NCBI GenBank assembly: GCA_030149525.1
Contig: JASBRJ010000053.1
Span: 1 to 39,787 of the forward strand
Reading direction: 5' to 3'
Length of the DNA stretch: 39,787 nt
Source: a bacterium
GTDB taxonomy: Bacteria > Vulcanimicrobiota > Xenobia > Xenobiales > JADMJV01
This document shows, one piece after another, positions 34,655-37,181 of this stretch. A model generated the notes under the pieces. That model was given only the letters and a program-made list of their open reading frames with translations, was not told the DNA's origin and did not search any database. Position 1 is the stretch's first letter. Every line of letters starts with the position of its first letter. The position numbers and the translations under genes were made by a program.

Positions 34655-35764
34655 CTACCAATGATATTTAACGGAATGTGCCTCTCGAGGTGAGGGAACT
34701 TCCCAACGATTCGTCATTTTCTCGATGGCTTCCCAGGGCACGCTGTTCTCTCTTTCTCGATTCTGTTGCTCGATGGTTTTCATAGATTTGTCAAGATAGA
34801 CGATGGTGACGTGGGCGTTGTATTCGAGAAAGAGCGAGAGCGACTTGGCTCGGATCATTTTGCTAAGATTGGTGGCGTTCCAGATGAAGTCTTGTTTGGC
34901 ACGCAGATAGGCGCGAGCTTTTTCCCTTGCCAAATCGGCGACTCTGGCCTGATTTGATTTAGGCGCGATATTCAGTTGGCGACGAATGTTGTCTAGAGAG
35001 ACGACGGGGAGATGCGAACCATGGTTGTGAATCCAGGTATCTTTTCCTACCCCGGGCAGTCCCGAAAGAAGAATCACTCGGCAGCGAAAGTCTTCATAGG
35101 GCGCTAGTTCGGGATTGTGCCATTTCCCTTGGAGATATTGGAAGCGGCCGGTATCGGAGGCGAACGGATAGGTTTCGTAGAGGCAGTGGGCCTCTCTGGC
35201 TGCCTCCCTGAAAAGCTCGACTTTATCCAGGAGATCTAGCTGGTCTTTACATTTGCGGCCCCTGGCGTCGGCGGTGGCGAGAATGCTGAGAAGATGGCAG
35301 GAGCAGTGAGCGCTTATCTCTCTCACCAACCGGCTGGGGTCGTCTTGTTCGAGAGCCCAGAAGACTCTCATATGATAATAGACCAGGTTACAGATCTGTT
35401 CTCGGATCGGGAAAGGACAGTCTCTTTCCCACAAAATCCTTCTAGCTCTTGCGGCGCCCCTGGAGGCGTGTCCCGGCGAGCTTATCCGACCGTCCGGCTG
35501 CTCGACTGTGCAGGCGGGCTTGGCCACGTCGTGGAGGAGAGCCGCCCAAGCCAGGATCTGTTGGGTCTGGAGATCGCTCTCTTGGAAGCCATTCAGACGG
35601 AGGAGTTCCTGACATACCATAAGCACGTGGGTGAGAACATCACCCTCGGCGTGATGAATGGGGTCCTGAGGACAATCTTTGAGGTCTGTCAGCCAGGTTG
35701 TGTTCTCGTCAAGGAGTTTTTGGGCGAAGGTTTCGTCGTCCAGGCCCTGGAGTTGCCAGGTCAT
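34655..35764 (-). CDS. HD-Pnk: HD-domain 2',3'-phosphoesterase fused to a 5'-OH polynucleotide kinase
   Basis: From the ATG at 35764 the product has 369 residues. The N-terminal HD domain (about 30-200) shows HHAEGD, ALLHDVAKP (His78-Asp79), PGHASRGAARAR, YYHMRV and ATADARG, the metal-ligand order of HD phosphohydrolases. The C-terminal kinase (about 228-369) has the P-loop GLPGVGKD (235-242), then SLDNIRR and FIWNATNLSKMIR, typical of T4-Pnk-like kinases. The same two-domain order defines the HD-Pnk RNA end-healing enzyme described from Runella slithyformis. There the HD domain removes 2',3'-cyclic phosphate ends and the kinase phosphorylates 5'-OH ends. The start overlaps the ligase stop by four bases (ATGA). 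The frame start at 35878 is rejected because it lies inside the ligase gene. Confidence 0.88.
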   Translation of the reverse strand: MTWQLQGLDDETFAQKLLDENTTWLTDLKDCPQDPIHHAEGDVLTHVLMVCQELLRLNGFQESDLQTQQILAWAALLHDVAKPACTVEQPDGRISSPGHASRGAARARRILWERDCPFPIREQICNLVYYHMRVFWALEQDDPSRLVREISAHCSCHLLSILATADARGRKCKDQLDLLDKVELFREAAREAHCLYETYPFASDTGRFQYLQGKWHNPELAPYEDFRCRVILLSGLPGVGKDTWIHNHGSHLPVVSLDNIRRQLNIAPKSNQARVADLAREKARAYLRAKQDFIWNATNLSKMIRAKSLSLFLEYNAHVTIVYLDKSMKTIEQQNRERENSVPWEAIEKMTNRWEVPSPREAHSVKYHW

Positions 35765-36555
35765 GAATTGTTTCCGAAGAGGTCGACGCCTTCGCCTAGA
35801 AGGTTGGGAAGAATCGGGCGATCTTGCCAATGGCTTCCTGAGTCGACGACGGTCTGGAGGAAGTCGTAGCGAACCCATTTGTAGCGGTCTTTGACCACGC
35901 CGTCTTCCTCGATCTTAATGTAAAGACCCTCGCTGAGATCGGAGGAGTCTGTCTCTCGCTGAACCTGTTCGGGGTTCTGGCCGTTTTCGGTGGCGTGAAC
36001 GGAGAGGTTTTGTCTCCAATTGGGGCTTTTATAGGCGCTCTTCTTGACAAAAGACTGGGGGTCTTTGAGACATTCTCCGTCGCCCTGATGGATAACGGGA
36101 ACACTGACTATCGGGAGGTTTTTGAGAAGTTCTTGCCTTGACGGTGTGTCCAGAAAGTTCATGGTGTGAGTGTCGAGGACGTCGAATTCGTGAAAGTAGT
36201 GAGGTAGGATATCGTAAAAAATAGTGTGCTTGCCGTAAACCCATTCGCCGTAGACGATGTATCGGTCGCCGATGGTCGACCAGAACTCGGAGGAAAAACG
36301 TGCTCCCCACGCTTTGAAAAGTTGGAATTGGCGTTCTCTAGGACCACCTTCTAGAAAATGTCCGCGGCTCTGCAGTTGAAGAAGCCCTTCGGAATCGAAG
36401 CTGAAGGCGCAGTTGGCGCCGTCTAGCTTCTCCTCGATAACGACATGGCGGCCTTTCAATTGATTGAGTGGAATCTGCTCAAGATCTTCGTCTCCGGGTC
36501 CAAGACGTGAACCTGCCAGGTGGTTGGTGCGTGGATATTTGAAGATCTTTTGCAT
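35761..36555 (-). CDS. ATP-dependent RNA ligase (Rnl-like nucleotidyltransferase)
   Basis: This 264-residue protein has the covalent nucleotidyltransferase motifs in order. Motif I is EEKLDGAN (the Lys at about 43 forms the AMP adduct), motif III is VYGEWVYGKH, the IIIa-like segment is FHEFDVLD, motif IV is SEGLYIKIEE and motif V is YKWVRYDF. The length and the lack of an OB-fold extension suit an Rnl2-type RNA ligase rather than a DNA ligase. The gene lies between a methyltransferase and an end-healing HD-Pnk in one coupled operon. Both flanking stop/start pairs overlap (TAATG and ATGA). It would seal RNA ends prepared by the downstream enzyme. Confidence 0.88.
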   Translation of the reverse strand: MQKIFKYPRTNHLAGSRLGPGDEDLEQIPLNQLKGRHVVIEEKLDGANCAFSFDSEGLLQLQSRGHFLEGGPRERQFQLFKAWGARFSSEFWSTIGDRYIVYGEWVYGKHTIFYDILPHYFHEFDVLDTHTMNFLDTPSRQELLKNLPIVSVPVIHQGDGECLKDPQSFVKKSAYKSPNWRQNLSVHATENGQNPEQVQRETDSSDLSEGLYIKIEEDGVVKDRYKWVRYDFLQTVVDSGSHWQDRPILPNLLGEGVDLFGNNS

Positions 36556-37181
36556 TACAGTTTGCCGAGAGCGATACGATGGTTGAGCACATGATGGAGT
36601 TGAACGGACTTGGCTCCACCCTGAAGGAGCAGGTCCTCCAGATCTTCGGCGGAGAACAGTTGGATATGCTCTGGATTGTTATCAGGTTTTGAGGGAACCG
36701 AGACCAGGATGTACCGGCCTGCAACTCTGATTAACTCTTTGACGGCGGTGAGAGGGCTTTCCATATGCTCCAGCACTTCGAGGGCTGTGACAACATCGAA
36801 ATGACCGTCTTTGTAGGAGAGGTTTGAGGCTTCGGTGAGTTCGGCTTCAACTCTCGGGAAGCCACCTCTTTTCACGGTGTTGATGAGTTCGACTCGGTGG
36901 TCGATGATGTCGATACAGTTTGCGGTGACATAGGGTATGTCGGTGAGCATGGTCCAGAGGAAGACGCCGCGACCGGTTCCCACATCAAGGAGAGTTTGGG
37001 GAACAAGGCCTTTGAGGAGACCAATGCACTTTGTGACTCGGGGTAGTTCACTCCGCTTGAAACGATACATTTTCAGGCCCTCGTCGAAGCCTCTTTGCAT
37101 CATTTCTTCGTCCGAACCGTCTATGCCCAGGTGTCCGCGTACGTAGGCCGCTGCGATCTCTGTGAGATAGTCCTCATTCAT
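36555..37181 (-). CDS. Class I SAM-dependent methyltransferase, first gene of the RNA-repair operon
   Basis: This 208-residue protein has a Rossmann-type methyltransferase fold. It shows motif I LLDVGTGRG (about 64-72) and the acidic motif II region (NCIDIIDH). It also has FDVVTALEVLEHM (about 112-124), and a final segment with PSKPDNNPEHIQLFSAEDL. It is not a clear Hen1: the E-x2-E-H-x-H metal site is not seen, although LEVLEH recalls part of it. Because it is coupled to an RNA ligase, a role in modifying RNA ends, as Hen1 does in Pnkp/Hen1 cassettes, is an attractive but unproven inference. A general small-molecule methylase remains possible. Confidence 0.82.
   Translation of the reverse strand: MNEDYLTEIAAAYVRGHLGIDGSDEEMMQRGFDEGLKMYRFKRSELPRVTKCIGLLKGLVPQTLLDVGTGRGVFLWTMLTDIPYVTANCIDIIDHRVELINTVKRGGFPRVEAELTEASNLSYKDGHFDVVTALEVLEHMESPLTAVKELIRVAGRYILVSVPSKPDNNPEHIQLFSAEDLEDLLLQGGAKSVQLHHVLNHRIALGKL

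Follow-up and report, generated by a model that had tools for sequence, protein, structure and literature searches.

A candidate RNA repair-and-protect operon combining a Hen1-like methyltransferase with an RNA ligase and HD-Pnk

Introduction

What is a methyltransferase gene doing in front of genes for an RNA ligase and an HD-Pnk, and could its product protect the RNA that the other two mend? The question is raised by a locus in a 39,787-nucleotide contig of a bacterium of the phylum Vulcanimicrobiota (the whole stretch is hereafter called the window). The initial annotation proposed that the three genes form an RNA repair cassette that recalls Pnkp/Hen1, with a methyltransferase that is "not a clear Hen1". 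To our knowledge, Pnkp/Hen1 and Pnkp1-Rnl-Hen1 are the characterised systems that both mend RNA and confer resistance to the same toxin. We found no mention of the methyltransferase, ligase and HD-Pnk combination in the literature searched, and an earlier mention may exist.

Results

Gene content and active sites of the operon

Three minus-strand genes, for the methyltransferase (MT), the RNA ligase and HD-Pnk in this order, are coupled via TAATG and ATGA overlaps, and every catalytic motif is intact. Coordinates and strand are as originally described:

36555..37181, minus strand: MT, a 208-aa class I SAM methyltransferase (Methyltransf_23), predicted to 2'-O-methylate RNA 3' ends in a metal-dependent reaction; its Hen1-like site consists of R48, E135, E138, H139 and H172
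36553..36557, minus strand: TAATG, one-base overlap of the MT stop and the ligase start
35761..36555, minus strand: 264-aa ATP-dependent RNA ligase (PF09414) with intact motifs I, III, IV and V
35761..35764, minus strand: ATGA, four-base overlap of the ligase stop and the HD-Pnk start
34655..35764, minus strand: HD-Pnk, 369 aa; an HD domain, predicted to be a phosphoesterase, at the N terminus and a predicted 5'-OH polynucleotide kinase of P-loop type at the C terminus

The start of HD-Pnk lies at 35878 in the open reading frame list and at about 35764 according to the starts of homologues; the latter was used. MT and the ligase are likely to be translationally coupled at TAATG.

Gene identities were established with Pfam. 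MT matched Methyltransf_23 (1.9e-13), in agreement with a SAM methyltransferase in first position; the ligase matched RNA_ligase PF09414 (2.3e-33, 116.2 bits against a gathering score of 27); and HD-Pnk matched HD (5.4e-6) and the AAA_33 kinase family (2.5e-22), all above the curated cut-offs. Neither the rhodanese gene (37208), which is divergently oriented, nor the 181-aa gene downstream showed a repair function in Pfam.

Alignment with the relatives first found, which are 41-58% identical to the proteins of the window, showed that the ligase motifs (I, K43-LDG; III, G103-E104-W; IV, S208-E209-G; V, Y225-K226) are invariant. So are the HD ligands H46, H78-D79, H99, H131 and D166 of HD-Pnk, the conserved positions of its P-loop motif GLPGVGK-D (235-242), among them G235 and G240-K241, and residue D258. 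The motifs reported in the initial annotation for both enzymes are therefore real and intact, and domains and motifs together support its reading of the locus as a predicted RNA end-healing and sealing cassette.

Fold search with the structure model of the ligase gave significant matches to solved RNA ligases only, with DNA ligases below significance. As to a possible place among the named subfamilies Rnl1 to Rnl5, the nearest folds were Naegleria Rnl, archaeal Rnl and T4 Rnl2, at TM-scores of about 0.4 and with a mean pLDDT of the model of 69. By sequence, neither the single ligase nor its profile matched an entry in the PDB.

Ligase and HD-Pnk form a widespread two-gene core

Employing profile search in named genomes, we found HD-Pnk next to the ligase in 78 of 80 ligase loci. 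The majority of these loci come from actinobacteria or cyanobacteria and lack a methyltransferase; all actinobacterial and cyanobacterial ligase/HD-Pnk loci examined lacked MT. Ligase and HD-Pnk are a widespread two-gene core.

Divergent ligase/HD-Pnk pairs without MT were also seen in three Myxococcota loci (L152, L154 and L157; ligase 117-134 bits, HD-Pnk 168-188 bits), which represent a second branch of the core, at a greater distance. There are also plasmid-borne relatives of the ligase, in which the adjoining gene is annotated as an AAA family ATPase and is probably HD-Pnk. One such cassette, on a P. aeruginosa plasmid (L215, NZ_OX638702.1), is flanked by two IS21 copies, and this position suggests mobility. 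Among viruses, the ligase sequence by itself gave no match, whereas its profile gave one close relative (L098), accompanied by HD-Pnk and without MT. PADLOC returned no defence-system match save a weak one to a larger protein.

MT is a dedicated but optional partner of the core pair

MT belongs to one distinct orthologous family, whose members score at least about 180 bits versus 79 or less for other methyltransferases. In 22 examined loci, MT adjoins ligase/HD-Pnk; the count includes loci in which HD-Pnk is absent or cut off and MT has only the ligase as neighbour. These loci are from Acidobacteriota, Chloroflexota, Myxococcota, Planctomycetota, Bacillota, the phylum of the window and one unclassified bacterium. 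Most have the order MT-ligase-HD-Pnk, four members of the window's family have the order ligase-HD-Pnk-MT, and the genes often overlap by 4 bases; because two gene orders exist, linkage has been kept through rearrangement. Across distant lineages, only HD-Pnk, ligase and MT recur in 51 neighbourhoods, the other clusters being antisense shadows, frame-shifted copies or local synteny. Since the same three families co-occur in unrelated genomes, their grouping is far beyond chance.

Searches for MT throughout the phylum of the window, Chloroflexota, Myxococcota and Acidobacteriota yielded 21 members, 17 of which adjoin the ligase (12 of 16 without the five from the centre or previously known genomes). 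One of the remaining four is unlinked in a ligase-bearing genome, two (G232, G416) belong to genomes in which no ligase of this protein family was detected, and one (G806) is unlinked, with no ligase on its short contig stretch. This last copy (L229:5845-6504, Acidobacteriota) has an intact MT site, and the ligase is absent from the 2.8 kb that remain on the contig. In the window's phylum, ligase and MT occur in the same 7 of 149 genomes. One of these, G137, carries MT on a separate contig, unlinked to the ligase, which ruled out this genome as a case of MT loss; there (L228:116-1403), the only unlinked MT in the window's family precedes a reading frame on the same strand that has no Pfam match.

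Seven genomes from Chloroflexota and Myxococcota carry a close ligase that MT does not adjoin; none of them has MT elsewhere, and the same was true of 13 MT-less genomes examined. The ligase tree, scored with G137 as MT-minus, shows a minimum of 3 changes of the MT label when only supported branches count, and 10 on the best tree; MT has thus been gained or lost repeatedly. Distances of MT and ligase are correlated (Mantel r 0.65, p 1e-4).

The initial annotation had proposed a three-part system, to be checked by gene neighbourhood, and had regarded genomes with ligase and HD-Pnk alone as evidence to the contrary. Such loci are the majority, so repair does not need MT and the system is not obligately tripartite; nevertheless, MT is a true partner, conserved beside ligase/HD-Pnk in at least six phyla. 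These results established MT as a dedicated but optional third member of the cassette.

MT carries the metal site of Hen1

To the profile of bacterial Hen1 (TIGR04074), MT showed a partial match of 16.4 bits, far below the cut-off of 340 and confined to the C-terminal methyltransferase part; the N-terminal ligase-activating domain of Hen1 is absent from the 208-aa MT. The reservation that MT is "not a clear Hen1" thus holds for family membership, but it understated the similarity, because the metal site is conserved residue for residue. When the MT profile was aligned with that of 24 Hen1 domains from bacteria (98% probability), R48, E135, E138, H139 and H172 of MT paired with the invariant Arg and the four metal ligands (E-x-x-E-H ... 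H) of Hen1, and all five residues are invariant in 26 of 26 intact members of the MT family. The counterparts of E135, E138, H139 and H172 in plant HEN1, Glu796, Glu799, His800 and His860, bind the metal plus the terminal 2'- and 3'-OH (PMC10781085). None of the 23 other Methyltransf_23 loci in the window's genome has the full five-residue set; one of them (L209) has E..EH and a later His, not all five residues.

Two Chloroflexota copies of MT (L160:7582-8370 and L161:7007-7726) have no ligase or HD-Pnk nearby and an altered metal site. In these ligase-free genomes, one copy shows E135D and the other E138D and H139R, and N169 is lost in both; judged from their sequences, they are possibly decaying or have turned to another role. 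Because both are altered, the active site of MT seems to be maintained where the repair genes are, a view based on two related exceptions.

Other comparisons of MT point to small-molecule enzymes. Among curated families, the sugar-oligomer methyltransferase MftM scores best (58 bits, with the cut-off at 200), which counts against the Hen1 reading. MftM (NF041255) and UbiG are the nearest curated methyltransferase families by score, yet far below their cut-offs, and their gene context is unlike that of MT. The structure model (mean pLDDT 94.6) gave 1125 PDB matches at E <= 0.001, a non-discriminating result; the top 50 are mostly small-molecule O-methyltransferases and do not include Hen1. MT has the ExxEH motif in common with UbiG-type enzymes. 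However, Hen1 itself is closest by sequence to UbiG and other small-molecule enzymes (PMC1397878), so such fold matches are a weak objection. MT is not a member of the Hen1 family and, to judge from its residues, is probably Hen1-like in action.

A complete Pnkp/Hen1 operon in the same genome

The window's genome also contains a canonical, complete Pnkp/Hen1 operon (contig C302, L213:5400-9190; Hen1 575 bits, Pnkp 1155 bits) and thus encodes two systems for RNA repair, with a separate methyltransferase in each. Therefore, the new cassette does not simply replace Pnkp/Hen1. Hen1 is rarer in genomes with MT (8 of 23) than in ligase genomes without it (45 of 56; Fisher p 1.7e-4). The idea that MT takes the place of Hen1 was considered and rejected: only 3 independent pairs lie on supported branches, the median p of the sign test is 0.5, and the association is lost on correction for ancestry.

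Discussion

A proposed pathway of repair and protection

Based on the characterised families to which its enzymes belong, the cassette very probably mends cut RNA. Given the Hen1 residues of MT, the mended spot would probably also resist renewed cutting. As we picture it, the substrate would be RNA cut by a transesterifying nuclease, with 2',3'-cyclic phosphate and 5'-OH ends. The HD domain would hydrolyse the cyclic phosphate to a 2',3'-diol, and MT, with a metal held by E135, E138, H139 and H172, would methylate the 2'-OH of this end. The Pnk domain would phosphorylate the 5'-OH, and the ligase would adenylate and seal, leaving at the junction a 2'-O-methyl group that blocks re-cleavage. Placing methylation before sealing would follow the order 3'-dephosphorylation, methylation, sealing proposed for Pnkp1-Rnl-Hen1 (PMC4411300). 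We put the probability that the operon is such a three-gene repair-and-protect system, with a 2'-O-methyl junction that blocks re-cleavage, at roughly 0.6.

Alternative explanations

MT might serve RNA repair and yet modify another site, such as a base near the break or the 5' phosphate, instead of the 3'-terminal 2'-OH. Its profile matches, which are generic, would suit such a role: weak scores were obtained for CmoB, which acts at the tRNA wobble position, and for a "tRNA methyltransferase" family of phages. However, the Arg and E/E/H/H set that matches Hen1 is invariant in all 26 intact members, in HEN1 this set holds the terminal 2',3'-diol (PMC10781085), and the motifs typical of base or K-D-K ribose methyltransferases are not apparent in the MT alignment; we consider another target site unlikely. 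It is much less probable still that MT methylates 3' ends as a protection or cap while ligase and HD-Pnk serve other molecules. Eukaryotic Hen1 does act in such a manner, and MT, at 208 aa, has no N-terminal ligase-activating domain of the bacterial type, but the tight operon linkage to healing and sealing genes and the precedents of Pnkp-Hen1 and Pnkp1-Rnl-Hen1 (PMC4411300) argue for joint action.

A small-molecule enzyme that adjoins the repair genes by chance would explain the fold and best curated matches of MT and the many core pairs without it. Against a chance neighbour stand the adjacency kept in both gene orders and across six or more phyla, the ligase beside 17 of the 21 members in the phylum-wide searches, and the loss of active-site residues in both ligase-free genomes; besides, UbiG is the nearest by sequence to Hen1 itself (PMC1397878). 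We regard such an accident as very improbable. Slightly slimmer still is the chance that the cassette mends DNA breaks. The related Deinococcus operon DRB0098-0100 has been read as a DNA repair operon, and DRB0098 phosphorylates 5'-OH DNA, but DRB0100 showed no DNA sealing (PMC1997131). The ligase of the window falls in PF09414, its model significantly matches RNA ligases only, and the Hen1-like site of MT would imply a 2'-OH substrate.

Relation to known systems

The HD-Pnk of Runella slithyformis is reportedly the subject of work by Munir and Shuman (2017). With HD-Pnk and ATP-dependent ligase pairs, as in this species and Deinococcus radiodurans (DRB0098/DRB0100, PMC1997131), the operon shares the HD and kinase architecture and an adjacent ligase-family gene, without any implication that its ligase and DRB0100 are of one family; its HD-Pnk has sequence features of this group, namely an HD domain with intact ligands, a P-loop kinase and a neighbouring ATP-dependent ligase. 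Unlike in the window, no methyltransferase has been described for these pairs, and in Deinococcus DRB0098-0100 a macro-domain-like gene, DRB0099, takes the place of MT.

Like the operon of the window, bacterial Pnkp/Hen1 unites a kinase, 3'-end healing, a ligase and an E/E/H/H methyltransferase in one operon and is predicted to provide repair with immunity. In Pnkp, however, kinase, phosphatase and ligase are fused, whereas the window has a separate ligase and an HD domain for 3'-end healing; Hen1 has its N-terminal ligase-activating domain, whereas MT is a bare methyltransferase domain. The Pnkp1-Rnl-Hen1 hybrid complex of Capnocytophaga gingivalis (PMC4411300) likewise has a separate Rnl, kinase/phosphatase protein and methyltransferase. 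There, Pnkp1 is homologous to T4 Pnkp, and hen1 lies far from the rnl and pnkp1 operon (PMC4411300), whereas the window has an HD domain and a methyltransferase inside the operon, which sets it apart from this class.

The best reading is that the operon parallels Pnkp/Hen1 as a repair-with-immunity system. We would give even odds to the broader proposal of a second such pathway, assembled independently of Pnkp/Hen1, in which a minimal stand-alone methyltransferase with the Hen1 metal site was added, possibly several times, to Rnl/HD-Pnk and 2'-O-methylates the junction. Loci with and without MT offer a natural comparison. If the proposal is true, MT would be a minimal Hen1-type enzyme free of regulatory domains, and a separate set of enzymes, present in at least six phyla, would reach the same predicted outcome, making protective methylation a recurrent solution.
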